From contig NZ_WBVQ01000001.1 of the NCBI RefSeq assembly GCF_008933165.1, positions 682,001-746,000 on the forward strand: a stretch of DNA of 64,000 bases, in the 5' to 3' direction. This document shows, piece by piece, positions 3,375 to 24,956 of the stretch. The notes below the pieces were generated by a model. That model did no database searches. It was not told the origin of the DNA and saw nothing but the letters and a program-made list of their open reading frames with translations. Each line of letters opens with the position of its first letter. Position 1 is the stretch's first letter. A program made the translations under genes and the position numbers. Origin of the DNA: Phaeocystidibacter marisrubri. Lineage in GTDB: Bacteria > Bacteroidota > Bacteroidia > Flavobacteriales > Schleiferiaceae.

Positions 3375-3737
3375 ATGATGGAGCTATTCTATATGGGTGG
3401 ACCCCTTTTTATGGGAATTCTAACTTTTATTTTCATCGCCATAATTGCCATAGCGGTCATAAACGGCATCCCATTCTTGAAAGGAAAATACTCAGATTTA
3501 GATGAAGGAAGAAGAAAGCTAGCTTATATCAAGGATGCAGGACTTCTTGCATTGGTGATCGGGGTTTTGGGTCAGCTGATTGGCTTGTTCTCCGCTTTCA
3601 AGGCCATCGAAATGTCGATGATGGATATTTCTCCAGCCATGCTTGCCGGTGGCGTTAAAGTATCGATGATTACAACGATTTACGGGCTGGTGATTTATGC
3701 TTTGTCGCTGTTGATTTGGGTAGGGCTTCGCAGGTAG
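3375..3737 (+). CDS. small MotA/TolQ/ExbB-like membrane protein
   Basis: 120 residues with three hydrophobic segments (about 9-32, 53-75 and 92-116). The stretch with GVLGQLIGLFSAF and the helix with GGVKVSMITTIYGLVIY are typical of the pore helices of the MotA/TolQ/ExbB proton-channel family, but the protein is far shorter than ExbB and lacks a partner ExbD gene here. The start could be either of two adjacent ATG codons. The last four residues (GLRR) and the stop codon are encoded by the first unit of the downstream 25-bp tandem array, so the natural C-terminus may have been altered by a few residues. Confidence 0.75.
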   Translation: MMELFYMGGPLFMGILTFIFIAIIAIAVINGIPFLKGKYSDLDEGRRKLAYIKDAGLLALVIGVLGQLIGLFSAFKAIEMSMMDISPAMLAGGVKVSMITTIYGLVIYALSLLIWVGLRR

Positions 3738-4251
3738 CTTGGGGCAGGGGCTTCGCAGGTGGCTTGAGGCAAGGGCTTCGCAGGTGGCTTGAGGCAAGGG
3801 CTTCGCAGGAGGCTTGGGGCAAGGGCTTCGCAGGTGGCTTGAGGCAAGGGCTTCGTAGGTGGCTTGGGGCAAGGGCTTCGCAGGTGGCTTGGGGCAGGGG
3901 CTTCGCAGGTAGCTTGGGGCAGGGGCTTCGCAGGAGGCTTGAGGCAAGGGCTTCGCAGGAGGCTTGGGGCAGGAGCTTCGCAGGAGGCTTGAGGCAAGGG
4001 CTTCGCAGGTGGCTTGAGGCAGGGGCTTCGCAGGAGGCTTGAGGCAAGGGCTTCGCAGGTGGCTTGAGGCAAGGGCTTCGCAGGTAGCTTGAGGCAGGGG
4101 CTTCGCAGGTGGCTTGAGGCAGGGGCTTCGCAGGTGGCTTGGGCAGGGGCTTCGCAGGTAGCTTGAGGCAGGGGCTTCGCAGGTGGCTTGAGGCAAGGGC
4201 TTCGCAGGTGGCTTGGGGCAAGGGCTTCGCAGGTGGCTTGGGCAGGAGCTT
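3719..4251. repeat. tandem array, 21 copies of a 25-bp unit
   Basis: The core motif CTTCGCAGG recurs every 25 bp starting at 3726, 3751, 3776 and onward to 4225 (21 copies), with a decayed partial copy ending near 4250. Units differ mainly at two spots (GGTGG/GGTAG/GGAGG and GAGGCAAG/GGGGCAGG). Two units, before 4150 and after 4225, are 24 bp long because one G is missing. Because 25 is not divisible by 3 and the unit lacks most stops, long spurious frames with 25-residue periodicity exist on both strands; I do not regard them as genes. There are no unique spacers, so this is a minisatellite, not a CRISPR array. Confidence 0.97.
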
Positions 4252-4359
4252 TAAAGTTCCAAAATAAAAAGGGGCAATACATCCATAGAAGTGAGTACTG
4301 CGGATTACTCTTAGTTAATCGATAATCACATTTCGATCTGATGAGAAGTAACCGAGGAG

Positions 4360-4680
4360 CTAGAACTGCCCATTGATCAATGGCAGGGATCGTTTGCCAT
4401 TCACGTTCCACAATCCAAATTGGAATCCTCTCAATTCTATAGCCATGTTGTAAAGTCCAATCTGAACTCCATCTAATGCTAATTCTATGTTCATCCTTAC
4501 CTGGGGCATTACACCAAAGTCTGAGGTTGCCATTTCGTGCAGATCATCATTGCACTTCCTTAGGAACATTTAAGGGAAACGCTGCGAGTTCTCCAGTAAT
4601 TAGGGCTGCTAGGATTACAAGGGTACTTCTGTACGGTTCATTGGAGATTTCGCAATTGTATCTCCATGGTAGCATTCATT
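4360..4680 (-). pseudogene. remnant of a surface-repeat (LA_2272-like) exported protein
   Basis: The 3' part (4360-about 4500) reads GVQIGLYNMAIELRGFQFGL and ends WNVNGKRSLPLINGQF, the recurring G-x-Q-[IF]-G-L-[YW]-N pattern and the usual C-terminal ending of LA_2272-type surface repeat proteins. Upstream, in another frame (about 4565-4640), lies a signal-peptide-like stretch STLVILAALITGELAAFP. The two parts are in different frames with stops between, and most of the middle is missing. I therefore call it a decayed gene with an internal deletion and frameshift. The family assignment is from memory of the motif. Confidence 0.5.
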
Positions 4681-4687
4681 CTACAGG

Positions 4688-5713
4688 TTAAATCCAAACC
4701 TTACTTCCCTCGGTACAGTTCTGACAGATGTCGATGTTTTGACGAGACTGAATGATGCTATTTCTAAAATTCTGGTAAGTTTTATCGTACCAGATATCTT
4801 GAAAAGTGTGATCCTTCAAAGTACCCATTTTGTACTTGGCATCTTTGTCAAAACAGCATGGAACGATGTCGCCATCCCAAGTAACAACAGCAGAATGCCA
4901 CAATCTCCAACAGTGATTGTGCAGCTTGCTTTTGATGCTATAGGTTCCGTCGGGGTTTTGCTTGTAACGACTGTATTTTTGGTCGGATGGAAGCAGTGGA
5001 CTCCCGTTTTTATAGTCGTAGATTTGAGCGGTTTTGAGCGCCACTTTATCTACACCCATCTTTTTCGCCAATGCGTGCAGGTCGTCAATTTGATGCTCGT
5101 TGTGCTTCACTACCAAAAATTGGAAAATGATCTCTGGAGCATTTGACTTGAGGCGTTTCTTCGCTTCAATCACATTGGCTGTTCCTTCTAGAACTTTATC
5201 AAGCGTGCCGTGATAGCGATACATCTCATAGGTTTCTTGCGTGGTTCCATCCACACTTACGATCAATCGATCCAGTCCTGATTCTACAATTTCATCGGCC
5301 ACCTTTGGACTGATGAAATGGGCATTGGTAGAGGTTGAGGTGAAAATACCTTTGTCGGAGGCATATTTCACCATCTTCAAAAACTGCTTATTGATAAAAG
5401 GTTCTCCTTGGAAATAGAAGGTAAGGTAGATGAGTTTCTTCGATACCTGATCAATGATTTTTTGGAAGAGATCCATTCGCAAGTTCCCCGTAGGTCTACT
5501 GAATTGCTTCAAGCCACTGGGACACTCAGGGCAGCCTAAGTTGCAAGCGGTGGTTGGTTCAATGCTGAGGCTGAATGGCTCTCCCCACTGAATAGGCTTC
5601 TTGGTGATTCGGGAGGCATAGTACCCAGAAATCAGTTGAATACCGTTCCAAATTTTGGCTGGACTCAATTTTCGAATCAAGCCAGTTAGATTGTGAAGTT
5701 TGGCTGCTTTCAT
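4688..5713 (-). CDS. radical SAM/SPASM domain protein
   Basis: 341 residues from ATG at 5713; the longer frame would need a TTG nine bases upstream. The radical SAM cluster motif is CNLGCPEC (CxxxCxxC) near residue 58, followed by the usual GEP-like FQGEPF. A C-terminal SPASM region carries further cysteines (HNCWRLW, VPCCFDKDAKYKMGTL, ICQNC) that would bind auxiliary iron-sulfur clusters. Members modify peptides, cofactors or small molecules by radical chemistry; no precursor peptide or partner gene is visible next door, so the substrate is unknown. Cytosolic. The stop lies 8 bp past the pseudogene remnant. Confidence 0.9.
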   Translation of the reverse strand: MKAAKLHNLTGLIRKLSPAKIWNGIQLISGYYASRITKKPIQWGEPFSLSIEPTTACNLGCPECPSGLKQFSRPTGNLRMDLFQKIIDQVSKKLIYLTFYFQGEPFINKQFLKMVKYASDKGIFTSTSTNAHFISPKVADEIVESGLDRLIVSVDGTTQETYEMYRYHGTLDKVLEGTANVIEAKKRLKSNAPEIIFQFLVVKHNEHQIDDLHALAKKMGVDKVALKTAQIYDYKNGSPLLPSDQKYSRYKQNPDGTYSIKSKLHNHCWRLWHSAVVTWDGDIVPCCFDKDAKYKMGTLKDHTFQDIWYDKTYQNFRNSIIQSRQNIDICQNCTEGSKVWI

Positions 5714-6043
5714 TGAGGACAAAGATGAAAAATTATCAAAGGGGGAACGAAGATGTGGAAAGTAATTTTGGCAGGACTTGGACGTGAGACTCTCAATTCC
5801 AGTATCCGAGGCTCTGCCAAGGGAAAACTATGTTCATCAAATCCATTGAGCGCATTGTCATCCAAATTATTCACCATAGAAACGGAGAATCTAATTAGAG
5901 CGAATGTATCGCTTGAATCTCCGGATTGTTTTCGGGTGGAGATTTCCCAGCATTCTGAGCTTCATGAAAAGGCAGTCATATTGATCGGGAGAGTACGACT
6001 ATCATCCAACGGCTAGAATGGGAGAGGGGGGATTCAGAAGATC
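5714..6043. other. intergenic stretch with no supported gene
   Basis: About 330 bp between the radical SAM gene and the VOC gene. The longest frames here (87 residues on plus, about 55 on minus) have no recognisable motifs, no signal peptide and no good start context. I see no RNA gene, repeat or clear promoter in it. Confidence 0.5.
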
Positions 6044-6415
6044 CTATCGATGTTGATCAATAAGAATGGCGTTCCCATCTGGATCTTTCATGGTGATATG
6101 AGCGGGGCCTGAGGTGTTGGAATCGGCTTCAGCGGTCAAAGGAATACCATGCTTCTTTAGGTGCTCTTGAATAGCGCGCACATCGTCAAATTCTTCAAGG
6201 TTCTGAGCATCGCTATCCCATCCAGGGTTGAAGGTGAGAATGTTTCCTTCAAACATCCCTTGGAAAAGACCAATCACGGCATTTTCATTTTTCAGTACGA
6301 TCCAATTTTGATCAATATTGCCTCCTTTATACGTGAAACCTAGTTTCTCATAAAAGGCTTTAGACTCGTGAATGTCTTTTACAGATAGACTGATAGAAAA
6401 TGCTCCGAGTTTCAT
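6044..6415 (-). CDS. VOC/glyoxalase-family protein
   Basis: 123 residues, one vicinal-oxygen-chelate domain made of two beta-alpha-beta-beta-beta modules. The first opens KLGAFSISLSVKDIHESKAFYEKLGF, here in two parts, and the second ends with ITMKDPDGNAILIDQ, a hallmark of the superfamily. Members include glyoxalases, dioxygenases and antibiotic-binding proteins; the specific reaction is not deducible. Cytosolic. It is a single gene with no close operon partner. Confidence 0.88.
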   Translation of the reverse strand: MKLGAFSISLSVKDIHESKAFYEKLGFTYKGGNIDQNWIVLKNENAVIGLFQGMFEGNILTFNPGWDSDAQNLEEFDDVRAIQEHLKKHGIPLTAEADSNTSGPAHITMKDPDGNAILIDQHR

Positions 6416-6477
6416 GTGTTGGTTTTTGATTATGATTTATAAAATTACGGAATTGATGGCAGTCTTCAGAGCTTAGA

Positions 6478-6592
6478 CTTCAACACCCCCCATCCGTCAC
6501 CCGTCATCCAACCCCTCAAACCTCTAAAACTCCTCAAACCTCTAAAACCTCTAAAACCCTTCAAACTCCTAAAACAACCAACCCCCAACAAA
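6478..6592. repeat. low-complexity intergenic repeat (CTCTAAAAC type)
   Basis: The stretch is made of degenerate AAACCTCTAAAAC and CTCAAACCT words preceded by CATCCGTCACCCGTCATCC. Read on the minus strand these are the same words (TTTTAGAGGTTTGAGG and GATGACGGGTGACGGATG) that build the gene-free region at 9930-10640. It lies between the VOC gene and the rplT terminator. Confidence 0.8.
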
Positions 6593-6619
6593 AAAAGCCC
6601 CACCAATTTGGTGGGGCTT
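6590..6619 (-). terminator. intrinsic terminator of the thrS-infC-rpmI-rplT operon
   Basis: A perfect 12-bp inverted repeat (AAGCCCCACCAA and its complement with a single central base, 6595-6619) is followed on the minus strand by a run of T (the A-run at 6590-6596). It lies 22 bp past the rplT stop codon. Confidence 0.93.
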
Positions 6620-6641
6620 CACTGTAAGTCTTGCGGAGTGT

Positions 6642-6986
6642 TTATTTTACTTTCTCAACGATTGCTTTGAAAGCTTCTGGGTTGTTCATCGCTAGATCGG
6701 CTAGAACCTTACGGTTAAGCTCGATACCAGCAGCTTTTACTTTACCCATGAAAACGCTGTAAGACATACCGTTCAAACGTGCACCAGCGTTAATACGCGC
6801 GATCCACAATGCACGGAATGTGCGTTTTTTGTTACGACGGTCTCTATAAGAGTAAACAAGACCCTTTTCAACCGCGTTTTTGGCTACTGTCCAAACGTTC
6901 TTACGACGTCCGAAGTAACCTTTTGATAGTTCCATAAGGCGCTTTCTGCGAGCGCGAGATGCAACGTGATTTACACTTCTTGGCAT
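6642..6986 (-). CDS. rplT: large ribosomal subunit protein bL20
   Basis: 114 residues, the normal length for bL20. It opens [18 protein letters not shown] and contains the conserved [12 protein letters not shown]-like segment (here [19 protein letters not shown]) and [17 protein letters not shown]. bL20 binds 23S rRNA early in 50S assembly, and in other bacteria it represses its own operon at the translational level. It is the last gene of the operon, 108 bp after rpmI, and is followed by a strong terminator. Confidence 0.98.
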
Positions 6987-7094
6987 AATTTGATCATTTT
7001 TTGTGAGGCGCGTTCTCCGTTTCCAGAGAAACTTTTAGGAGCGACAACACAGGGTTTAATGAGATGAACCAGGCAATTCGTACCTGAAATCAGA

Positions 7095-7289
7095 TCAGAT
7101 AACGAGCTGCTGCTTAATTGATTTTACGTCGGCTTTGTCTACCAAAGTAGCATCCGTCAAACGACGCTTACGGTCAGTTGCTTTCTTGGTCAAAATGTGA
7201 CTTTTGAAAGCGTGCTTGCGCTTAATCTTGCCAGTACCAGTGAGCTTGAAACGCTTCTTAGCACTAGACTTAGTTTTCATTTTCGGCAT
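7095..7289 (-). CDS. rpmI: large ribosomal subunit protein bL35
   Basis: 64 residues, standard size, highly basic. It shows the family signature [20 protein letters not shown] and [16 protein letters not shown]. It is a structural protein of the 50S subunit. It stands between infC (34 bp upstream) and rplT, the usual order. Confidence 0.98.
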
Positions 7290-7323
7290 AATCCTACAGT
7301 TTATCGCGAGACTTACAGTTTGC

Positions 7324-7875
7324 TTATTTCTTTTTCTTGGATCCGATGAACATAATCATACGCTTTCCTTCAAGCTTAGGAAGTTGTTCAACCTTTCCCA
7401 CGTCTTCTAGATCCTGAGCTAGACGCAACAAGAGAATCTCTCCCTTGTCCTTGTACACGATGGAACGTCCCTTAAAGAATACAAAAGCCTTAAGCTTTGC
7501 ACCTTCTTCCAAAAACTTGCGTGCGTGCTTGAGCTTAAACTCGTAATCGTGGTCGTCAGTATTCGGACCAAATCGAATTTCTTTTACGGTGACCTTCTGA
7601 GCTTTCTGCTGAATTTCCTTCTGCTTCTTCTTCTGGTCGTACAAGAATTTCTTGTAGTCGATGATACGTACAACTGGTGGATCTGCCTTTTCAGTGATCA
7701 TCACCAAGTCTAAGTCTTGCTCTTTTGCAAGTGACAACGCGTCGCGCGTAGCCATGATTTGGGGTTCTGCTCCTTCTTGTATCACACGTACTTTAGGCAC
7801 TCGGATCTTCTCATTTGTCAAGTGAAGATCTTCCTGTCTTTGTACGCGCTGTGGGGCTCTTCTTGGTCTCCTCAG
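7324..7875 (-). CDS. infC: translation initiation factor IF-3, probable CTG start
   Basis: IF-3 binds the 30S subunit and checks the start codon and initiator tRNA. The N-domain begins [19 protein letters not shown] and the C-domain holds [18 protein letters not shown] and the end [13 protein letters not shown]. The frame has no ATG, GTG or ATT before this domain. Reading upstream from TTG at 7821 the frame encodes a basic extension ([18 protein letters not shown]) of the kind other Bacteroidota IF-3 proteins carry, and it is closed by a TAA at 7888-7890. The only near-cognate codon ahead of the extension is CTG at 7875, giving 183 residues; the TTG would give 165. E. coli infC uses AUU for autoregulation, so a rare start fits the family. 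Confidence 0.9.
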
Positions 7876-7915
7876 AGTTCTAAGATTTTAATTTAACTTC
7901 TTTTTATTCAGTAAG

Positions 7916-9856
7916 TTAGTCTTCAAATGAAGCTAGCTTTTCTTCAACTTCGGTTGAAACCACTTTGGCGAATTCTTCCACACTCATGGTTCCAATATCT
8001 CCTTCTCCATGTCGACGAACAGCGAGCATTCCGCTTTCGGCTTCCTTTTCTCCTACAATCAACATGTATGGAATCTTCTTGACTTCAGCGTCTCGGATCT
8101 TTCTTCCGATCTTCTCACTTCTGTCGTCAATCAGGGCGCGAATATCGTAATTTTCAAGCAATTTCGAAACTTTAACGCTGTAGTCCTGATACTTATCTGA
8201 AATTGGAAGGATGGCAACTTGCTCTGGCATCAACCAAAGTGGGAAGTTTCCTCCGCAATGCTCAAGTAACACAGCCACAAATCTTTCCATAGATCCGAAT
8301 GGTGCTCTGTGAATCATCACCGGTCTGTGGAGTTCGTTGTCGCTCCCTTTGTATTCCAATTCAAAACGCTCGGGTAGGTTGTAATCTACCTGAATTGTAC
8401 CCAACTGCCAACTTCTGCCTAATGCATCTTTCACCATGAAGTCGAGCTTTGGACCGTAGAAAGCTGCTTCACCATATTCTACAACCGTATTGAGTTTCTT
8501 CTCTTCGGCAGCTTCAATAATGGCGCGTTCTGCTTTCTCCCAGTTTTCGTCCGATCCGATGTACTTCTCGCGGTTCTCTGTATCTCTTAACGATACTTGA
8601 GCAGTAAAGTTTTCAAAATCAAGAGTTTTGAGGATATAAAGTACAAGATCAATTACTTTCTTGAATTCATCCTTCAACTGATCCGGTGTACAGAAGATGT
8701 GTGCATCATCTTGAGTAAAACCTCTCACACGAGTGAGACCGTGAAGTTCGCCGCTTTGCTCGTAGCGGTACACGGTTCCAAATTCCGCTAAACGAAGAGG
8801 GAGGTCGCGGTACGAGTGTGGGGATGACTTGTAAATTTCACAGTGATGTGGACAGTTCATCGGTTTCAACAAGTACTCTTCGCCTTCTTCTGGGGTGTGA
8901 ATTGGTTGGAAGCTGTCCTTGCCGTACTTCGCATAATGGCCAGAGGTTACATACAACTCCTTGTTTCCAATGTGCGGAGTGATCACTTGTTGGTATCCAG
9001 CCTTCTTCTGAGCGCGTTTGAGGAATTGCTCCAAACGCTCGCGAAGGGCTGCACCTTTTGGTAACCACAATGGCAAACCTTGACCCACTCGCTGAGAGAA
9101 AGTAAAGAGTTCAAGTTCCTTACCTAACTTGCGGTGATCGCGCTTTTTAGCCTCTTCCAGCAACTCCAAGTACTCGGTTAACATGCTTGCCTTCGGAAAG
9201 GAAATGGCATAGACACGAGTAAGCTGTGGGTTGTTTTCGTTACCTCTCCAGTAGGCACCGGCCAAGTTCATCACTTTCACTGATTTGATGTAACCGGTGT
9301 TTGGGATGTGACCGCCTCTACATAGATCGGTAAAGTTGGCGTGATCGCAGAAAGTGATGGTTCCATCCTCCAAGTTCTGGATCAATTCCGTCTTGTATTC
9401 GTTGTCCTTGTATTCTTCCAAAGCTTCAGCCTTGGTAACTGAACGCATTTTGAATTCCGACTTCTGTCTGGCGAATTCAAGCATTTGCTTCTCAATCTTC
9501 GGAAAATCAGCTTCTCCAATAGAAACGCCATTGAAATCTACGTCGTAGTAGAATCCATTTTCAATGGGAGGTCCGATGGTGAGTTTGATGTTCGGATAAA
9601 AATGAAGTAGGGTTTGTGCAAGTACGTGGGCAGACGAGTGCCAGAATGCACGTTTTCCTTCTTCTTGATCCCACGTAAATAGCGTGAGTTCTCCATCGCC
9701 ATCTAAAGGTTCCATCAATTCGATGGTTTCTCCATTGTAGGTTCCGCTAAGTACATTTCTAGCCAAACCGTGGCTGATGTCTTTCGCCACATCCATGGCG
9801 CTGCTTCCAACGGGCATTTCTTTTACAGACCCGTCGGGTAAAGTTACTTTGATCAT
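7916..9856 (-). CDS. thrS: threonine-tRNA ligase
   Basis: 646 residues, full length. The N-terminal TGS domain ([20 protein letters not shown]) is followed by the editing domain (HSSAHVLAQ, with the zinc-type HxxxH). The class II catalytic core has motif 2 [15 protein letters not shown] and the metal-site [10 protein letters not shown]. The C-terminal anticodon-binding domain begins near [10 protein letters not shown]. It charges tRNA-Thr with threonine and edits Ser-tRNA-Thr. First gene of the four-gene translation operon; infC starts about 40 bp downstream. Confidence 0.98.
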
Positions 9857-9887
9857 GCTCTTCTTCGTTACGAGTGAAGGTAAAGCA

Positions 9888-9918
9888 CAAAGGTAGTGGG
9901 AAGATTAGAGGTGGGAAA
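9888..9918 (-). promoter_or_regulatory. promoter of the thrS operon
   Basis: On the minus strand TTTC (9915-9918), 19 bp, then TACCTTTG (9888-9895), matching the Bacteroidota pattern TTTG-N19-TAnnTTTG. The thrS ATG lies about 30 nt downstream. Confidence 0.7.
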
Positions 9919-10274
9919 GGTTTTTTTGGTGAGGGTGTGAGGAATTGTGGGGATAAGGGTTGAGGGTGTTGGGTTTAAGGTGTTTTAGAGGTTTAAGGGG
10001 TTGGATGTCGGGTGACGGTTGATGGATGTAGGTTGATGGATGTTGGATGACGGGTGATGGGTGACGGATGGCGGGTGATGGGTGACGGATGGCGGATGAC
10101 GGGTGATGGATGTTGGATGACAGATGAAATCTACATTTCCTTTCTACCGCGCGAATCCTTTCGCGTGGGTGTTCGAGGTGTTGGTTTTAGGTGATGGGTG
10201 TTGAATGCGTTTAATGAGTTTAAGGGGTTTAAGATGTTTAAGATGTTTAAGATGTTGGAAGACGGGTGACGGAT

Positions 10275-10422
10275 GACGGATGACTTGAGTCAGTAACCGT
10301 TTCATTGATAACTGCCAGCGGCGGTAACTCCGTTAGCCCGATGGTGAGGAGGAACGACGCTACCTAGGGCTAGTTAGGAGGGGTTAATGGGTTTACGGTG
10401 TTTTAGAGGTTTGCGGGGTTGG
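10275..10422. repeat. 148-bp structured repeat, copy 1
   Basis: Direct repeat of 10453-10600, offset 178 bp, with three differences by eye and no gaps. It contains short hairpins: CTGCC-AGC-GGCGG, TAAC-TCC-GTTA and CCTA-GGGCTAGT-TAGG. It ends in the TTTTAGAGGTTTGCGGGGTT word common to the region. Confidence 0.92.
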
Positions 10423-10452
10423 AAGACGGATGGCGGGTGACGGGTGACGGGT

Positions 10453-10600
10453 GACGGATGACTTGAGTCAGTAACCGTTTCATTGATAACCGCCAGCGGC
10501 GGTAACTCCGTTAGCCCGATGGTGAGGAGGAACGACGCTACCTAGGGCTAGTTAGGAGGGGTTAATGGGTTTAAGGTGTTTTAGAGGTTTACGGGGTTGG
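10453..10600. repeat. 148-bp structured repeat, copy 2
   Basis: Second copy of the element at 10275-10422. Here the first hairpin is perfect (CCGCC-AGC-GGCGG, 10490-10502), whereas copy 1 would have a G-U pair at that spot. The flanks on both sides are GGTGACGG-type degenerate repeats. Confidence 0.92.
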
Positions 10601-10721
10601 GTGACGGATGGCGGATACTTCTGGTAACTGACATTTTATTACGGTTTAGTTGGCAAAAACAACCGAAGAGGGAACGGGAGGAGAGCGAAGCAGTTCATAT
10701 TCAACGGAATGATAATGTCGC

Positions 10722-12479
10722 TTAGTTGGATGCTACAAGCTTGGATGTGTCAATTCCATCTGGACCCACTGGTTCACATATGAATGAATTGACTCCTGAA
10801 TCAGAGAAGTTAGAAGTGTTTATTTCACCGTGATAGGCTTGGTTGTCACGGCCTAAAGCAATGAAGGTGAAGCGGGTATCCGTTCCTAGCTTCATTACTT
10901 GAACCCCTGTTTTATTGATGTTCTGATCCACAATGGCATTGTCGCTGGCATCTATTAATCGCAAATAGGTGATGTCTAGGTGTTGGCCATTGACATTGGT
11001 GAACTGTACGGTAAAATCGCTAGAAGGCACGCGGTAGAATCGGTCGCAATTGAATATACCAAAGGTATTGATGTCAAAATTCCTTGAGAGGGTTTCAGAG
11101 ACGCGATCCATCCTTTGAGTGATGCGCTCTCTGTATTCTCGAATCGAATCAGAATAACGAGTCCATTTGCTATTCTCGCGTCTTACTTGCGCATAATAAG
11201 CAGCTGGATCATTAATCCTGCGATAGGATTCTGGGTATTTCCCTAATACAAATTGGACGGAAAGGCGATATTCATTTCCATATTTATCTCCATTGATGAT
11301 ATTATTGACAAAGGCAGACGTTCGCGTTAAGTCGGTGCTCCATTTATCACCGTTGTATTCTTTCTTCGCCACTTTAACAAGTCGGTCGGAGAGGACCATC
11401 AATGCACTATCACATCGCCATTTGTTGTGGATGCTCTGCTGAACCTCCATCGCATGTCGACGTTGGTTTGGTGTATAGTTTGGAATCACTTCTACCAATA
11501 CGGAGTCACCGTCGTTTCTTCGGTTGTAGGAGTACATTTCATAATGTCCTTCAGGCGTTTTTCTGAATTGAAGATAGTTGGTACTCAATCGCATAGATCG
11601 TTTGAGGTTCTCCTCGTCAACCGCAGAAAAGTACATGGGTCGAAAATTGGCAAATTCCCAATGTGTCATGGCCTTGCTTATATCCATTCGAATGCTCAAA
11701 GCATTGTTGGCATTGTACTCTTGCCATTCCACTGGGCGTTCATTGTGAAACTGACTCATGCAAGTTGCTGGATAGTATACGAAGATGTCTTCGAACACCT
11801 CAGTGGCACAGGTGCGAGGTTGACCACGGGGGTCAACCACAATATCCCAAATACCCGCTGTACTCAATGGAGGGATTTCCACAATACTCTCATCTTTATC
11901 GGTTTGCGAAGGCTGCGTGGTTGTGGTGGTGGATACCTGTGTGGATGTTGAAATCTGTATCCATTCACCGGATTCTGCATCAAATCTCCAAAGGGGGTAG
12001 TCGTCTTTGGAATCAGCGGGTAGCTGAATGGACAAGGATTTACCATCGGCAATCGTAATGTTGGGGTCTGAAGTGATAGAAATCATCCCGGCAGTTTGAA
12101 AACTTCCTAGGGTTCCATCTGGACTTTTCGCTGTCATGGTAATGTTTGAATTCAGAACAGCAGAAAGGGAAGTCATGTCCTCTACATACAGCGTTACTGT
12201 TCCTTCAATGAGGTTTCCGCTGGCGTCGGCAAATGCGTTTTTAGGTACTTCGATTTCTACACCGCTTTTCAATTCAATCTTACCGCCACTTGATGCATGA
12301 ATGGCGTGCTCAGAGATCTCATTTTTAGGGAGGTGAGCTAGAAGGTTATCGGCATAGTCGACGGATTCAACTTCAGTAGGTTCAACTACTTCTTCAGTAT
12401 TGGGATTCTCTGAAGATTGACAAGACGGGAATAGGAGAAGGCAAAAAGCCGACATTCTGAGAAGAGAGTGAATTTTCAT
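10722..12479 (-). CDS. large lipoprotein of unknown function
   Basis: 585 residues with a lipoprotein signal (FCLLLFPSCQSS, Cys20), so probably anchored in a membrane facing the periplasm or outside. Residues about 60-160 (GGKIELKSGVEIEVPKNAF, VTLYVEDMTSLSAVL, GMISITSDP) match a beta-rich module seen in many Bacteroidota lipoproteins. A Thr/Ser-rich linker follows near 178-192 (STSTQVSTTTTTQPSQT), then a long alpha/beta region with many Arg and Tyr. No enzyme motif is seen. It is a stand-alone gene downstream of which the repeat region begins. Confidence 0.8.
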   Translation of the reverse strand: MKIHSLLRMSAFCLLLFPSCQSSENPNTEEVVEPTEVESVDYADNLLAHLPKNEISEHAIHASSGGKIELKSGVEIEVPKNAFADASGNLIEGTVTLYVEDMTSLSAVLNSNITMTAKSPDGTLGSFQTAGMISITSDPNITIADGKSLSIQLPADSKDDYPLWRFDAESGEWIQISTSTQVSTTTTTQPSQTDKDESIVEIPPLSTAGIWDIVVDPRGQPRTCATEVFEDIFVYYPATCMSQFHNERPVEWQEYNANNALSIRMDISKAMTHWEFANFRPMYFSAVDEENLKRSMRLSTNYLQFRKTPEGHYEMYSYNRRNDGDSVLVEVIPNYTPNQRRHAMEVQQSIHNKWRCDSALMVLSDRLVKVAKKEYNGDKWSTDLTRTSAFVNNIINGDKYGNEYRLSVQFVLGKYPESYRRINDPAAYYAQVRRENSKWTRYSDSIREYRERITQRMDRVSETLSRNFDINTFGIFNCDRFYRVPSSDFTVQFTNVNGQHLDITYLRLIDASDNAIVDQNINKTGVQVMKLGTDTRFTFIALGRDNQAYHGEINTSNFSDSGVNSFICEPVGPDGIDTSKLVASN

Positions 12480-18129: not shown

Positions 18130-18960
18130 ATGAAAAAGCTCCTCGTTTTCGCTCTGTTTATTCCTGCTATTTCCTATTCTCAACCTTTTATTTCGCACGA
18201 TAAAATGGATGTCCGAATTTCCTATACGTCTGGAAATGCAGGATTTCAAAGAGAGTTTAATGCAGCGAATTATGAAGACTTTTTAGTTATTCCCTTTCAA
18301 TTGGAAGGAGTTACAAATGCGGAGTATTCACGACCATTTGAGAATCGATACCTCACGAATTCATATTCCATTGGTTTCCATTTTCCAATTTCATCGAGCA
18401 GGTTTTTTCTTGAAACAGATGTGATGTACAGCGAAGGTGAATACTATTCTGATTTCTTCGGACCGTCTACCTACAACGGAAATACGCCACTTAATAAATT
18501 GCAGGTAAGCGAAAGTATGACGTATAAGGCCGGAGGTTTGGGGCTAGGGGTTGATTTTTTAAGTGATGAAGAGTTCGATTTGGAACTTGTTTTTAAGATC
18601 TATGCTGGCAATAGGACTTGGAAGCTGGAGTCCACCTTAATGGATATGACCGACGAAAAACCGCATGAAGCATTAGAATCATCTGAATTTAATTTTCAGC
18701 ACTCTTTGTCGATTCGTTGGGGGCAAACCATTGTTCCCCGCTTTGGCTATTTCATAGGATTTGGAGTCTTTCAAGGATACTCCTATGAATTGGACGAAGT
18801 CTATCGCACAGAATTATCATCGGGTCAGTATGATGTAAAAGATGGGACGAATATCCGATATCACTATATGAGCGGTACTCAAGTTGATGATATTGAGAAG
18901 GATGTTTTAAAGGTCTCAGAGCTTTCTATCCAATTTGGATTGTTTTACACGTTGGAGTGA
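18130..18960 (+). CDS. probable outer-membrane beta-barrel protein
   Basis: 276 residues with a signal peptide (KKLLVFALFIPAISYSQ). The rest has alternating aromatic/hydrophobic strands separated by polar turns, with segments such as SYSIGFHFPI, GLGLGVDF and FGYFIGFGVFQGYSY, and ends in an aromatic-rich strand (IQFGLFYTLE), as expected for a barrel in the outer membrane. No specific family is recognised. Confidence 0.7.
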   Translation: MKKLLVFALFIPAISYSQPFISHDKMDVRISYTSGNAGFQREFNAANYEDFLVIPFQLEGVTNAEYSRPFENRYLTNSYSIGFHFPISSSRFFLETDVMYSEGEYYSDFFGPSTYNGNTPLNKLQVSESMTYKAGGLGLGVDFLSDEEFDLELVFKIYAGNRTWKLESTLMDMTDEKPHEALESSEFNFQHSLSIRWGQTIVPRFGYFIGFGVFQGYSYELDEVYRTELSSGQYDVKDGTNIRYHYMSGTQVDDIEKDVLKVSELSIQFGLFYTLE

Positions 18961-18973
18961 AGTATTCGAATGA

Positions 18974-19510
18974 CTAGAGTTGCTCAATCATTTTAGCCAG
19001 TGCATTCACTGTGTTTTGATTCCTCGTGGTAGCACGCTGTCCCAGAATCTTTTCTAGAACATTGTTGTTGATAGATGGCTTCGCAAGCGATTTCGGATAG
19101 GATAGGTACACGGCTCTGCCAACCACTTTTAGCGATTCTTCTAATCCGAGCTTTTCTCGCAATCGGTTCACTTCTGTTGCACTTGGTGCTGTTTCGAGTA
19201 AGGTGATGTAGGCTTTGTGATCTTCGGGAAGTTGGACAAATACCGTGTTCATATCCGACTGAACACTTTTCCATTCTTCAGGCGAAAACAACATGGTTGG
19301 AACTTCAAATCCGGTGCTTCCTAGAATGGCATTCTCAAGATCACTCTTTAAAACTTCGTCTTCCGATTGAAAAACGGCATTTCCACTCTGGATGTACGTT
19401 TTCACATTATGTAACCCGATGGATTCGTAGCATTCACGGAGTTGAGCCATTGGTATTTTCTTATGCCCGCCAACATTGATACCTCGGAGAAGATGGATGA
19501 ATGTTTTCAT
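18974..19510 (-). CDS. DUF1697 family protein
   Basis: 178 residues. It shows the DUF1697 signature: FIHLLRGINVGGHKKIPMAQ at the start, ESIGLHNVKTYIQSGNAVFQ, and the end ILGQRATTRNQNTVNALAKM. The family is widespread and small, with unknown function. It ends 13 bp from the convergent beta-barrel gene. A decayed second copy lies at 22777-22991. The ATG sits 10 bp inside the left 220-bp direct repeat. Confidence 0.92.
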   Translation of the reverse strand: MKTFIHLLRGINVGGHKKIPMAQLRECYESIGLHNVKTYIQSGNAVFQSEDEVLKSDLENAILGSTGFEVPTMLFSPEEWKSVQSDMNTVFVQLPEDHKAYITLLETAPSATEVNRLREKLGLEESLKVVGRAVYLSYPKSLAKPSINNNVLEKILGQRATTRNQNTVNALAKMIEQL

Positions 19511-19720
19511 GTCCTCAAGGTACTGCTAATTGTGAACGCCAAAGTTGTGCAGGGTTGATGTGTCCTGTAAATGTATCGCTGTAGATGGTAGTTGCCGGTC
19601 TGTTAAACCCATCGCTGTCATCTGTCTCTTCGAGAATGCCCGTAAGTGCAACTCTCAATTCGGTTTCAAATTGACCTTCAAATTCTGGAAAAATGTACGT
19701 TGCTTGATGCTTAGGAGGGA
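19501..19720. repeat. 220-bp direct repeat, left copy
   Basis: Matches 22982-23201 at a constant offset of 3481 bp with no gaps; I count roughly ten substitutions, so about 95% identity. It begins with the ATGTTTTCAT that includes the DUF1697 start codon (minus strand) and ends at GGAGGGA, after which the sequences diverge at once. Confidence 0.95.
19515..19720 (-). pseudogene. 3' fragment of the WG-repeat protein gene
   Basis: Read on the minus strand this fragment encodes the last roughly 68 residues of the WG-repeat protein at 22996-24900, including FPEFEGQFETELRVALTG and TFTGHINPAQLWRSQLAVP with the stop. The frame is intact and the few amino-acid changes are mild (R to Q, L to F, S to N, V to L), but it has no start and no upstream body. 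Confidence 0.9.
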
Positions 19721-19814
19721 AACATATCAGTAAGTATTGAAACTTTTTTCAGTTCATAATTACGTGAGAATAAATAATTTCCGAAAATCAACTTCAGCTT
19801 GACTCATTACAACG

Positions 19815-21815
19815 ATGAAGATTAATGTTCTAAATTCTCTGCTGTATTCATTTTTTCTGGGAATGTCTGTAGTTTGCTTTGCTCAAGAACAAGAAAGATC
19901 TCACGCCCTAGGTGCTGAAGTGCTTTCTGAATCACCTAATGGTGTGATCTCAGTATCACCGCAACTATACGAAAGAATAAAAGCATGGCTTGCTATAGAA
20001 GAAATACCTCTAGATCATTTCCTAGCAAGTTCAGAACTTCCACAGGGTGAAGTACAAGAATTCCTCAATCAATTCAATGTAACGTTTTCGAAAACCGGTT
20101 CAGATTGTATTTGTGCGACGATCCGACCTAACATAGTGTATTCATATCGTACAATCGACCCAAATCAATGGACGGACAACCATGAAGTAGTCGATGACGG
20201 TGACTGGTTTGGAGGAGCTTATCGAAAAACGACACGCTTAATGGATGGTCCTGGTATGAATCTCGATTTGTACTTCTATTGGGATGACGGAGCCTTTAAC
20301 ACTTCTATTGAAATCAAAGAATCTTTGATTCAAGTAGAACTATTAAATCTTTGCACACAATTATTTTATCGCAATAGTGAGTGTTTTTGTGAGAAGCCTC
20401 TTCGCGTCTCGAGTCGCGCTTACTACAATTATAACTATGACTCCAGATCTTATGGTTTGTTTACGAGCCATGGCAGAGCAGGAGAATTAGATTTTGGATT
20501 TTCTACTTTGGTTCTTGATCTCGAGCCGAATATCAATGGTCAGAACATTTTCTCAGAGTTAGATGTCAAGAGCTTCGAAATTTACAATGGCTATTGGAAA
20601 GCATGGATTAATCCTAATTGGAAGGGCTACCTTAAATTCGGAGGAGAACTTGCAAAAACCATTTACGGTATTGCCACGATATCACCTACTGGAGCTATTG
20701 TAAAAAAAGATAGTACTGGAAATGTAGGCGCATCCCCCCCACCTTCATTTCCTGTTTCGAACTTAAGTGATTTATCCAACGCCCTAAACGGATTAGGCAC
20801 TAAGTATTCAATTTACACGAGTTCATTACCTGGTTCGGGAAATAGAGCATATTCTTCTATAACTTATCTCAAGTCGAACATCCCGAAGGTTATTCTACAT
20901 GTTGGACAAGCCAAAGTCTACGCTGACGGAAGTGGAACTTCTGGACATGTAGATATTGATTTCGGTAGCACCTATCAGGCCACTCATGTTGTTGGATTTC
21001 ACGACATCGGTTACAGCGATGAAATGACCCCAATTTCTGAAGGGCAATGTTGTAATGAAGATTATGGATTCTGGTGGTATTCAGAAGATTATTCCAAAAT
21101 TGGAATTGCAAACGTTCAAACAGATATTGCAAATCTGCTCAACTATGGTGGTGTCTTTAGATGGTATAACGCATATCCCATTACGCTTACACTTCATTCA
21201 AGTGGGATTCCAGCTTACATTAATTCATCTACTAGACAGATAAGTAGAGTACGCGAGAACGCCGGAGAGGTTGAAGGAGACGAGACGTGTCGTTGTAAAA
21301 GCTTAGAGTATCGCCCTAACGAAAGACTAGTACCACGGATCGTAGCAAATTCATTAGAATACTGTAGACAATCATTCACAATTCACGATGCAACATACCC
21401 CAATTTAGTTCAACTGTTTCCTAACGTGGAATCTAGATGGCGACTAAATGGTGTAGACATTCCGGGTTCTACAAACTCTAGTTCTGTAACGGTTAATGGT
21501 CCGGGAACATATTCACTTGTTTATGTAGACTTGGTCTCAGGTTATTGTCAAACTATTGATGCCGTTGAAATAACACAATGCGTGGGAAAACACGATTTCG
21601 GTTCAATTCAAGTTTTGAATGGTTCAATCTATATCAACACAGATAATCAAATGGATCGGGTAGATATTTTTACACTCGATGGCAGATTAATATCTTCAAA
21701 CCACGCTGACTCTCATATCTTGAGCATGCAAAATTCGAAATTGGCTCAAGGTGTTTATATTGTTAAGGTCCTACTCCATAATGGAGAGTACATTGTTGAA
21801 AGAATTGTTCTATGA
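19815..21815 (+). CDS. T9SS-secreted protein of unknown function
   Basis: 666 residues with a signal peptide (residues 1-23, ending CFAQE). The last about 75 residues form a type A T9SS sorting domain: DRVDIFTLDGRLISS, followed by AQGVYIVKVLLHNGEYIVER and a short basic/hydrophobic end. It is therefore probably exported across the outer membrane and cut or attached at the surface. The middle is rich in Tyr, Asn and Ser, with several cysteine pairs (CICATI, CFCEKP, CCNEDYGFWW, CRCKS) but no known domain. It overlaps the next gene by four bases. It lies inside the segment bounded by the 220-bp direct repeats. Confidence 0.85.
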   Translation: MKINVLNSLLYSFFLGMSVVCFAQEQERSHALGAEVLSESPNGVISVSPQLYERIKAWLAIEEIPLDHFLASSELPQGEVQEFLNQFNVTFSKTGSDCICATIRPNIVYSYRTIDPNQWTDNHEVVDDGDWFGGAYRKTTRLMDGPGMNLDLYFYWDDGAFNTSIEIKESLIQVELLNLCTQLFYRNSECFCEKPLRVSSRAYYNYNYDSRSYGLFTSHGRAGELDFGFSTLVLDLEPNINGQNIFSELDVKSFEIYNGYWKAWINPNWKGYLKFGGELAKTIYGIATISPTGAIVKKDSTGNVGASPPPSFPVSNLSDLSNALNGLGTKYSIYTSSLPGSGNRAYSSITYLKSNIPKVILHVGQAKVYADGSGTSGHVDIDFGSTYQATHVVGFHDIGYSDEMTPISEGQCCNEDYGFWWYSEDYSKIGIANVQTDIANLLNYGGVFRWYNAYPITLTLHSSGIPAYINSSTRQISRVRENAGEVEGDETCRCKSLEYRPNERLVPRIVANSLEYCRQSFTIHDATYPNLVQLFPNVESRWRLNGVDIPGSTNSSSVTVNGPGTYSLVYVDLVSGYCQTIDAVEITQCVGKHDFGSIQVLNGSIYINTDNQMDRVDIFTLDGRLISSNHADSHILSMQNSKLAQGVYIVKVLLHNGEYIVERIVL

Positions 21816-22708
21816 TTAGAACTTTAGCCACGGCTTTACTTTTATTTCCTAGTATCTGTTTGGCTCAATTCCATAATCCATGGAACGTTGAGGTAGGTTT
21901 TGATATTGGTCCAAGCAACTTGGCCTTAGATGATCAGCTTCCTTCAGAGAAGAACTATTTGCAAAGTCCATTTCAAGTTCCTTACGACACTTCTCAGTAT
22001 TTATTTGCGCATGATTACCGAGGAATTTGGATACGTTCTCAGGGTAGGATTGATTTGGGAATTAATTTTCAATTCACTCATGAAGATGGTTATACGTTTG
22101 GATTGGGATATAAAACTGGATTCGTACCGAATGCTAAACCAAGGGTATATAATCGATCAACGGGACTTGGAGAAAGTTATAGTCGCTCGCTTGAGATAGC
22201 ATTCAACTCCGTACAAACTCAATTCGGATGGGATTTCTTTCATGAACGATGGAATATCTCAAAGTCCCACACTCTGAGACTTATGGGATACGTAGGGTAT
22301 TCTTGGATGAGCGTAAATGACGACTATACTTACCATTATGTCGAACATAATGGTTCGAATGAGATGGAAGTCAACTCCGAGGAAAGCTTCACTTGGACTG
22401 CTGGCGGTATAAATTGGGGTTTTGGACTGAATTACCTGTGGTTTCCTAATAAGAATCGTCAAGGAATAGGTTTAGGCATTACAGCACGTTTTGAACGTCA
22501 TTATATGCAGTACCAAGAGATGAATCGTAACTCGTACATTCTCAATGGATCAGATGAAATGCCATCGTTATCAAAGAAAGAAATTTTCTATGTGTTTGAC
22601 GGTGAGACATCATCGAATAACAATTCTTCTACGCATTTTGAAAAGGTCACCTCTCATATGGATAATCTGCATGTCGGACTTCTCATATGTTACAGATTTG
22701 GGAGATAA
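21812..22708 (+). CDS. probable outer-membrane beta-barrel protein, coupled to T9SS cargo
   Basis: 298 residues. A signal peptide (LATALLLFPSICLAQ) is followed by strands with regular aromatic residues (WNVEVGFDIG, GRIDLGINFQFTH, FGLGYKTGF, FGLNYLWFP, and the last strand LHVGLLICYRFGR), a typical outer-membrane barrel. Its ATG overlaps the stop of the T9SS-cargo gene (ATGA), so the two are translated together and probably work together at the surface. It has no match to a family I know. Confidence 0.75.
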   Translation: MIRTLATALLLFPSICLAQFHNPWNVEVGFDIGPSNLALDDQLPSEKNYLQSPFQVPYDTSQYLFAHDYRGIWIRSQGRIDLGINFQFTHEDGYTFGLGYKTGFVPNAKPRVYNRSTGLGESYSRSLEIAFNSVQTQFGWDFFHERWNISKSHTLRLMGYVGYSWMSVNDDYTYHYVEHNGSNEMEVNSEESFTWTAGGINWGFGLNYLWFPNKNRQGIGLGITARFERHYMQYQEMNRNSYILNGSDEMPSLSKKEIFYVFDGETSSNNNSSTHFEKVTSHMDNLHVGLLICYRFGR

Positions 22709-22776
22709 AGTCTATTCGATTGATAATGAAGAGGGTTTAGTTTAAGCGGTGTGTCGAGTAATGGAGGGTAATACAA

Positions 22777-22991
22777 CTACAAGTCGATGCCTATCTCTTG
22801 GTGTACCAAAATGATTTTTTCCAATACAATGGTGGTGATGTCTGGATTCGTTTGAAACACCACATTTCCACTATAGATTTTCAATTAGACGTACTGAAGT
22901 CCCGCAGATTCATAGCATTCTCTCAGCGGTGACATAGGGATTTTCTTGTGTTTCCCAACACTGATGCCTCAGAGAAGATGGATGTTTTCAT
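22777..22991 (-). pseudogene. decayed DUF1697 gene fragment
   Basis: Minus-strand reading gives MKTSIF and then, after a frameshift and an in-frame stop, GISVGKHKKIPMSPLRECYE, SAGLQYV, another stop, and IYSGNVVFQTNPDITTIVLE. These align with the first 65 or so residues of the intact DUF1697 gene (GINVGGHKKIPMAQLRECYE, IQSGNAVFQ). The rest of the gene is lost. Similarity to the intact copy is clearly lower than that of the flanking 220-bp repeats. Confidence 0.88.
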
Positions 22992-23201
22992 GTCCTCAAG
23001 GTACTGCTACTTGTGAACGCCAAAGTTGTGCAGGGTTGATGTGTCCTGTAAATGTATCGCTGTAGATGGTAGTTGCTGGTCTGCTGAACCCATCGCTGTC
23101 ATCTGTCTCTTCGAGAATGCCTGTAAGTGCAACTCTCAATTCGGTTTCAAGTTGACCTTCAAATTCTGGAAAGATGTACGTTGCACGATGCTTGGGAGGG
23201 A
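22982..23201. repeat. 220-bp direct repeat, right copy
   Basis: Right-hand partner of 19501-19720. It covers the first 10 bp of the DUF1697 pseudogene and the last 206 bp of the intact WG-repeat gene. Between the two copies lie 3261 bp with the T9SS cargo gene, the barrel gene and the DUF1697 remnant. Confidence 0.95.
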
Positions 23202-24900
23202 TGCGCAAGGGATAACGTGAATTGCCACACCAAGATGTTGGAAAGTGGGTGATTTGCCTCCAGTTTCCACTAGCATCTTTGGCTTCAATAGAAATGAATA
23301 ATTCGCCATCTAGTGAACGAAGGTTTGCATCACTCGAATGCATTCCATTCACAATATGAACCATCATTCCACTGGATTTTAACTCGGTGGGAGGAGACCA
23401 TAATTCCAAGTAAAGCTCACGTTTTTTAGGGGCTTCAACGTATTCAAAATGGCCATCCATGCTGTACATGGCTCTGCTAGCGCTATCAGGACGTATGGGA
23501 GGGTTAAATCGCAGCATTCGGATGTGATGATCAACGTTTACGGGGGAATAAGGAACGTCGTGCAAAAAGCCCAATCGGGTGTTATCCGTCTTTATGAAAC
23601 CGCTTTTCACATCTTGTGTGGCAGCATACCACTTATTGGAGAGGGGAGTAGGAGTGATGATGTCGTACTCCGCGGGCACTAGGTTGCCTGAAGTAAGATC
23701 CCATAAGCCATACAATCGTTTCGAAGCACGAAGGTGAAAGTCAGAGGTGTTTCTTGAGAAGCGAATCACACCTTCATTGAGAACGTGGGGATCGGCAAAA
23801 TTGCTAAATGTCATTCGGTTCGATATTCGTCCATTCTCATTTACAGAATACCATTCATCCTTATACATGGCTCCTGTATATCCACCCGTAAACGGAGGAG
23901 TAGCAAACTGCTGTTGATTAATCGGAATGATAAACCCATCAAAAACGAAATTTCCAACCTTGTCAAAATCTTCGTCACACAACCACCAGTCGTGTTCACT
24001 GTTGCGCACTAACATGCGGTTGTCAACTATTCCAGTAGCCATTTTAATGGAGTCTGGAAAGGGTGTAAACGTACCGTCGTCTTCTAAGATGGCAAGAATC
24101 GTTGCCGAGTTGTTGGTGTTTTCTGAGGGAGGACGGTCTTCCAAATAGATGCGGGTTATGGCCTTATCGTCATTGAAATGAAGTTCGTGTACGTATGAGT
24201 AAGCATCGAGAATAGAGTTGTTAAAGGTGCCCGTTACATGGCCTTCTTCGTCAAGGATGTCAACTTCTATAAAAGCATCGGAGGAACGCGCAATCAACAT
24301 TCGATCTCCGGCTGAATAAAATTCGTCGTTGGGTTGTTTCGTGTATAGAACTTCGCCTTCATCATTGATGAGTCGTGATTCGGTTATTTCCTCTTCATTT
24401 CTATAGCTCACCACAAATAAATGAGGTAAAATGGCGTAAGCAGATCCTCCGGTGGCAGAGTGTATGATCTCATTTTCGTTATTCAGTAACACCAAATCCA
24501 TGGAGGGATTCAACACTACAAGAAGGACATCGGAGTTTGCGTATTCAATCGCTTGGTGGACATTGCGGTAGAGGAATTCACCATTTCGCAGGAGTACCGA
24601 AGGTTTTTCCGATTCATAGACAATAGCTCGTCCATCTTTGAAAGGACGGGCGAATTCAAATTTGGGTTGAAATACCCAGTTTCCGTTGGAGTTGATGAAT
24701 CCGTAATAACCTCCTTCTCGAACGGCCGCAAGACCTTCTGAAAAGTCATAGGCCTTGTGAAATCTAGGATGAATCACCCACTCTCCCTCTTCATTCATGT
24801 ATCCCCACTTCCCATTCTCCCCGCAAATTGGGAAGAGCAACTGGGCGCTGAGCACTGTGCTGAGAACAAGGAAAAAGGCGAGTAGTGTAATGCGTTTCAT
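22996..24900 (-). CDS. exported WG-repeat protein
   Basis: 634 residues from ATG at 24900, chosen because it opens straight into a signal peptide (MKRITLLAFFLVLSTVLSAQ). Two or three WG repeats follow (GKWGYMNEEGEWVIHPRF, then YYGFINSNGNWVFQPKF), each beginning with a W/Y-G pair and ending in a P-x-F/Y strand; weaker copies continue (GLWDLTSGNLVPAEYD near 430). A separate C-terminal region of about 170 residues ends INPAQLWRSQVAVP and is shared with the next gene. Function unknown; WG repeats are thought to bind proteins. Probably paralogous to 24957-26954. Confidence 0.88.
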   Translation of the reverse strand: MKRITLLAFFLVLSTVLSAQLLFPICGENGKWGYMNEEGEWVIHPRFHKAYDFSEGLAAVREGGYYGFINSNGNWVFQPKFEFARPFKDGRAIVYESEKPSVLLRNGEFLYRNVHQAIEYANSDVLLVVLNPSMDLVLLNNENEIIHSATGGSAYAILPHLFVVSYRNEEEITESRLINDEGEVLYTKQPNDEFYSAGDRMLIARSSDAFIEVDILDEEGHVTGTFNNSILDAYSYVHELHFNDDKAITRIYLEDRPPSENTNNSATILAILEDDGTFTPFPDSIKMATGIVDNRMLVRNSEHDWWLCDEDFDKVGNFVFDGFIIPINQQQFATPPFTGGYTGAMYKDEWYSVNENGRISNRMTFSNFADPHVLNEGVIRFSRNTSDFHLRASKRLYGLWDLTSGNLVPAEYDIITPTPLSNKWYAATQDVKSGFIKTDNTRLGFLHDVPYSPVNVDHHIRMLRFNPPIRPDSASRAMYSMDGHFEYVEAPKKRELYLELWSPPTELKSSGMMVHIVNGMHSSDANLRSLDGELFISIEAKDASGNWRQITHFPTSWCGNSRYPLRIPPKHRATYIFPEFEGQLETELRVALTGILEETDDSDGFSRPATTIYSDTFTGHINPAQLWRSQVAVP

Positions 24901-24956
24901 CTTGAAGATGTAGTTTGGAAGGATGGGAGGCAAGTATCGTTCCGAAAATTTCCTGT

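Follow-up and report, generated by a model that had tools for sequence, protein, structure and literature searches.

How did a two-gene segment with no recognisable recombinase come to lie between a DUF1697 gene and a WG-repeat gene, with an intact copy of one of these genes on each side and a broken copy of the other? The question is raised by a locus in the window, i.e. the 64,000-nt stretch of Phaeocystidibacter marisrubri contig NZ_WBVQ01000001.1 (positions 682,001 to 746,000) that was analysed here; the genome is assembled in 22 contigs and totals 3,351,272 bases. Along the plus strand, the genes are menC, a beta-barrel gene (barrel1, plus), DUF1697 (minus), a WG-repeat gene tail (minus), a 666-residue protein of the type IX secretion system (T9SS) type (plus), a 298-residue beta-barrel (barrel2, plus), a DUF1697 fragment (minus), the WG-repeat genes WG1 and WG2 (both minus) and, beyond WG2, a gene that we take to be pirin-like. 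The reading that we favour, and to which we give about an even chance, is that the segment would be the scar of a single, homology-assisted insertion of foreign DNA during which the tail of the WG gene was duplicated. The features on which the argument turns are the following.

18974..19510, minus strand: intact DUF1697 gene, 178 aa (PF08002, 122.5 bits, residues 1-135)
19496..19720, minus strand: left repeat copy, the 3' end of a WG gene without its body plus the first nucleotides of DUF1697 (95% to 22977-23201)
19815..21815, plus strand: cargo gene 1, 666-aa protein with a T9SS C-terminal sorting domain (TIGR04183, 24.5 bits, cut-off 23)
21812..22708, plus strand: cargo gene 2 (barrel2), 298-aa predicted outer-membrane beta-barrel (all-beta model)
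22765..22984, minus strand: dead 5' fragment of a second, diverged DUF1697 gene (51% aa identity over residues 5-77, 3 stops, 4-nt shift at the joint)
22977..23201, minus strand: right repeat copy, within the intact WG gene (95% to the left copy)
22996..24933, minus strand: intact WG-repeat gene WG1 (PF14903, 86 bits; 645 aa when counted from the TTG start of the open reading frame list, the query used being of 631 aa)
18130..18960, plus strand: barrel1, the flanking gene in the interval between menC and DUF1697 (27% to barrelA of genome G002, E 3e-19)

The segment had been described in a first-pass annotation as bounded by direct repeats, and this description holds. The two copies, 19496-19720 and 22977-23201, align over 225 nt without gaps at an offset of 3481 and differ at 11/225 positions (95% identity). 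The copies of about 220 nt first reported are thus real, but they are only part of a similarity of about 425 nt that is made of two parts of very unequal identity. On the DUF1697 side the similarity runs on for about 200 nt beyond the repeat at 60-71% identity and with a 4-nt shift; the flanking 136 nt (19364-19499 and 22849-22984) are 71% alike at an offset of 3485. In the local alignment, identity falls from 95% to 71% at a 4-nt indel located about 13 nt within the DUF1697 frame, at about codons 3-5. At the opposite end, the similarity stops at 19721/23202, the following 20-nt blocks having 6/20 and 4/20 identical positions.

The proposed pairing of one intact with one dead copy of each gene was likewise recovered. 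DUF1697 is intact on the left and reduced on the right to a 5' piece with two stops in 45 ungapped codons (three in the wider match, residues 5-77). The WG gene is whole on the right only, where the repeat copy forms the end of the long WG open reading frame. The left copy is in frame with the WG end, and the repeat holds 67 sense codons and the stop. When the segment was spliced out in silico at four points in the repeat, both DUF1697 (178 aa) and WG1 (645 aa) were restored every time, in agreement with the claim that recombination between the copies would re-create a DUF1697-WG junction. The longest run without mismatch in the repeat measures 66 nt (19530-19595), and RecA-dependent loop-out through these identical nucleotides is possible in principle.

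The feature is real and unusual for its surroundings. A genome-wide search located the repeat at two places only, and the possibility that it is a widespread domain was discarded. In a control covering 464 kb of the same contig (20 stretches and the window), a filter for direct repeats (length 90 nt or more, identity 70% or more) retained 28 pairs, with spacings of up to 400 nt (14 pairs), above 25 kb (7 pairs) or in between (7 pairs). Inspection was confined to the seven pairs of intermediate spacing, of which one is the DUF1697/WG repeat and the other six, at 804-823 kb, appear from a reading of their sequences to belong to a single dispersed repeat. Neither gene of the segment matched a recombinase family in Pfam or NCBIfam, so that the reported lack of a transposase was upheld. 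The search for terminal inverted repeats gave seven inverted pairs of 12-26 nt in 19490-23210, none of which links the segment ends, and no inverted pair of at least 30 nt in 15-29 kb of the window. A transposon, insertion sequence or integrase element was rejected on these two grounds.

The two parts of the similarity have different histories. Between the DUF1697 fragment and the intact gene, the differences over codons 5-49 are distributed 12:6:22 by codon position (45 sites each), compared to 2:2:6 in the WG tail within the repeat (68 sites each). The repeats are therefore more alike than the DUF1697 copies, as first noticed, whether all positions are considered (40/135 vs 10/204, Fisher p 4e-10), third positions (22/45 vs 6/68, p 3e-6) or positions 1 and 2 (18/90 vs 4/136, p 4e-5). 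Extension of the tail by 4 nt beyond the repeat gives 13/210 (p 9e-9). In a piece that evolves by decay alone, changes on its own branch are spread evenly across the three codon positions. The pattern of the fragment instead resembles that of working orthologues, for which the comparison of DUF1697 gives 7:5:25 between P. marisrubri and Phaeocystidibacter luteus and 7:6:32 between P. marisrubri and G002. This suggests that the fragment diverged mostly as a functional gene. The first-pass annotation had invoked gene conversion or a second recombination event to account for the unequal identity; such an event stays as a rival explanation but is not required.

The excess of the fragment at positions 1 and 2 is small, 18 differences vs 12 or 13 of 90 in the orthologues, i.e. 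6 or 5. Together with the codon pattern, this small excess leaves room for the fragment to have come from another DUF1697 lineage at the time of insertion. As the excess is compatible with the 10/204 of the tail, the death of the fragment could coincide with the duplication of the WG tail, although this agreement is weak. At seven of the ten tail differences a G/C of the right copy faces an A/T of the left one, two are the reverse and one is T/A, a bias that hints that the left WG-tail copy is the one decaying.

A survey of 88 genomes of the family, that of P. marisrubri included, provided the same locus in relatives. The first-pass annotation had proposed to look there for the DUF1697-WG junction, and a like arrangement without the segment was found in the genus mate P. 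luteus LMG 25704 (taken to be G001). Its order is pirin-like gene, WG (679714-681690), DUF1697 (681885-682403) and menC (682404-683444), with neither segment nor barrel1. G002 carries two WG genes, the pirin-like gene, DUF1697, two barrels and menC, and the cargo is absent from the locus; as the pirin-like gene intervenes, WG and DUF1697 are not neighbours in this genome. A relative of barrel1 adjoins DUF1697 in G002 and none occupies the same place in P. luteus. DUF1697 was found in 10 of the 88 genomes, with one match each in G001 and G002, and the intact gene shares 54-57% amino acid identity with each of these two. The WG genes change rapidly here, the species sharing 25-28% identity; in the search for named relatives of the WG gene, two stretches fitted a pattern and none was confirmed.

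We infer a foreign rather than paralogous source for the inserted DNA, a single event, and DNA uptake or some other transfer as the route. In the ancestor, WG1 would have stood beside DUF1697, barrel1 and menC. The incoming DNA, derived from a different lineage within the same clade, would have carried the secreted-protein/beta-barrel pair next to a DUF1697 gene of its own and would have recombined at the WG-DUF1697 junction. The common 5' end of DUF1697 may have served as anchor, with a joint at about codons 3-5 made 4 nt out of register that left the incoming DUF1697 piece out of frame; a joint of this kind between two diverged DUF1697 genes would leave such a shift at the break in identity. 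The other end would have been joined within WG, duplicating 225 nt, and both resident genes would thereby have been left intact, one per side. The duplication was perhaps formed between sister chromosomes or via a circular intermediate.

Several observations weigh against this scenario. The formation of the duplication is its weakest point: homology-facilitated insertions are known to delete recipient DNA, and the 225 duplicated nucleotides need an extra assumption. The counts are small, and whether the two ages agree depends on 5-6 excess differences. The three stops in the wider fragment exceed what a decay of about 5% should produce, by a rough uncomputed estimate, and hint at an older death. 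Shared-site patterns pair the fragment with the P. marisrubri gene at 12 sites and give 8 and 6 for the other two pairings, and a poorly resolved tree leans slightly to that gene as the nearest to the fragment, so that an in-lineage paralogue is possible. The supposed ancestral adjacency of WG and DUF1697 is supported by P. luteus only, the pirin-like gene intervening in G002, and the gap between them is 194 nt in P. luteus vs 4 nt in P. marisrubri. No donor with DUF1697 adjoining the cargo barrel was found, and the low G+C of the cargo (0.39) is equalled by its neighbours barrel1 and WG2.

A paralogous origin is the alternative to be taken most seriously, though we consider it rather unlikely. 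Two old tandem DUF1697 genes would have received the cargo between them, and a later ectopic gene conversion starting from the DUF1697 5' end would have copied 225 nt of the WG tail leftward. An old DUF1697 divergence beside a young tail divergence would then be explained directly, and the fragment does share slightly more sites with the P. marisrubri gene than with that of G001 or G002. The price is two or three events and, given the single DUF1697 match in each of these two genomes, either gene loss or a duplication within this lineage that dates from about the time when the species separated. The same gene order could also come from a plain tandem duplication of DUF1697-WG with decay of one copy of each gene and addition of the cargo. 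We judge this improbable: one age for the whole repeat is rejected (40/135 vs 10/204), and only a later conversion of the tail rescues the model. An equal-age tandem duplication was accordingly ruled out by the codon-position counts. Moreover, the comparison of barrel1 with barrel2 gave no match at E up to 10, which indicates that a recent duplicated unit did not include the barrels and led us to reject a recent duplication of the barrel genes.

The succession of an intact first gene, a fragment of the second, cargo, a fragment of the first and an intact second gene is also the product expected from a single crossover. A circle bearing a DUF1697-5'/WG-3' junction and the cargo could have integrated in the manner of Campbell and might leave in the same way, which the in silico excision restoring both genes would accommodate, as would a similar layout in P. 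luteus at comM and a beta-barrel gene. We nevertheless give this model little credence, since a single integration predicts a WG tail on the circle about as diverged as its DUF1697 fragment, contrary to what is observed; the genome holds no second copy, and neither cargo protein matched the plasmid collection. In a variant that we hold to be very improbable, the segment would be a recombinase-free cassette with its own homology arm, the DUF1697-5'/WG-3' junction, looping out through the WG-tail repeat and re-entering by homologous recombination. Through repeated exchange the tail would stay young as the trapped DUF1697 piece grew older, and the comM 3'-end copies found across the three genomes of the genus would reflect the same strategy at another site. 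On present evidence the segment is not a new mobile element.

The insertion scar would rather be an uncommon example of a type of event already known. Site-specific elements can displace the 3' end of a gene, e.g. e14 in icd, and leave a copy of this end at the far side of the insert. The present locus differs from them in having no integrase gene and in a repeat that extends beyond the stop codon into the adjacent gene, where identity drops. Closer is homology-facilitated illegitimate recombination, presented in PMC3240628 as the joining of DNA to the chromosome with homology at one end and none at the other (see also Prudhomme 2002; de Vries 2002; Meier 2003, as cited in PMC5361080). One joint here likewise lies inside shared homology, at the shifted DUF1697 codons, but 225 nt of recipient DNA are duplicated and both resident genes are intact. 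According to PMC5361080, effector-immunity modules of the Vibrio cholerae type VI secretion system are acquired next to a conserved anchor, with remnants of genes left behind; a mechanism resembling homology-facilitated illegitimate recombination is proposed there for module displacement. In contrast to these modules, no effector-immunity pair was recognised here, the anchor is the DUF1697 5' end and a single event is seen. Duplication of recipient DNA is described, in PMC3784515, for merodiploids formed during Streptococcus pneumoniae transformation, where incoming DNA integrates between chromatids; the duplications given there span about 100 to 900 kb vs 225 nt here. Among the titles and abstract openings listed by the literature search, none concerned this locus; Phaeocystidibacter is treated in PMC7214798. 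The search returned no case combining one-end homology joining, anchor-side modules and recipient duplication, the literature on gene-end displacement lying outside its coverage.

The cargo pair likely consists of a secreted protein and its outer-membrane partner. Cargo gene 1 also matches PF18962 at 22.8 bits, under the cut-off of 27 for this family, and its structure prediction was unusable (pLDDT 31). Cargo gene 2, whose start overlaps the stop of cargo gene 1 by 4 nt, has no match in Pfam or NCBIfam. Its all-beta model is of moderate quality (mean pLDDT 65, pTM 0.63). Outer-membrane barrel proteins make up the 50 PDB matches listed for it, at low TM-scores by query length (0.08-0.39). The T9SS protein was found in 8 of the 88 genomes: besides P. 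marisrubri, G011 has the sole near-full-length match (residues 30-592, 29%, one in-frame stop), G064 a weak one (residues 3-233) and the remaining genomes short parts only. The barrel was found in 3 of the 88. In G011, a 23% relative of the barrel comes after the T9SS gene, making G011 the sole other genome in which the pair was seen adjacent, and the pair therefore looks like an old unit. Searched against the plasmid collection, and not against phages, viral contigs or E. coli genomes, neither cargo protein gave a match. A 59% relative of the cargo barrel is present in P. luteus at a different locus, beside a copy of the comM 3' end (NZ_WBVO01000004.1).

Such copies of the comM 3' end in the genus may be a better lead. 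In P. luteus, contig C22 (L056) carries over 4444-11948 comM in intact form, a dead and weakly matching piece of a beta-barrel (31% over 65 residues, 2 stops), a further two genes on the minus strand, dead comM pieces and an intact beta-barrel. The last of these is the barrel with 59% identity to that of the cargo, and the order of intact genes, fragments and cargo is that of the DUF1697/WG locus. In the P. marisrubri genome (G000), the 3' end of comM recurs as an open frame of 162 codons at a distance of about 7 kb from the intact gene (G000:C2:567581-568066 and 575180-576712, L064). Between them lie genes for a protein with two HATPase domains, a 794-aa protein without assigned role and a C5-cytosine methylase, perhaps a defence island. 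The identity of these two ends is a mosaic: it starts at 97-98% over 120 nt, goes down to 88% over the following 60 and is then 62-80% up to the last few nucleotides. G002 also has copies of the comM 3' end (loci C71:13382-14917, C71:40443-40806 and C21:1-169; L065-L067). One of the copies is 25 kb from comM, across an apparent pilus-like region as read without a family search, and contig C71 ends and contig C21 begins in a comM-end copy. At least two comM-end matches (E 1e-15) were obtained in 3 of the 88 genomes, those of P. marisrubri, G002 and G024, the two of G024 lying in long open frames; the comM-end pieces of P. luteus are shorter and fall below this limit.

Two further repeats were observed in the window. 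The dispersed repeat at 9970-10638, also at G000:C1:804226-822900, is rich in GGGTTT and TTTTAGAGG, and some of the C1 copies have a CGCGCGAATCC stretch. A direct-repeat array with a 25-nt spacing and 20 registered copies occupies 3647-4317.

Overall, the locus documents in legible form how accessory genes for secreted proteins may gain entry to a Bacteroidota chromosome when no mobile element is involved; one of its joints can be located to within a few bases, and there is a rough age for either side. The comM locus hints that gene-end repeats could serve repeatedly as landing sites in the genus, which, if so, would be a general route of gene turnover.

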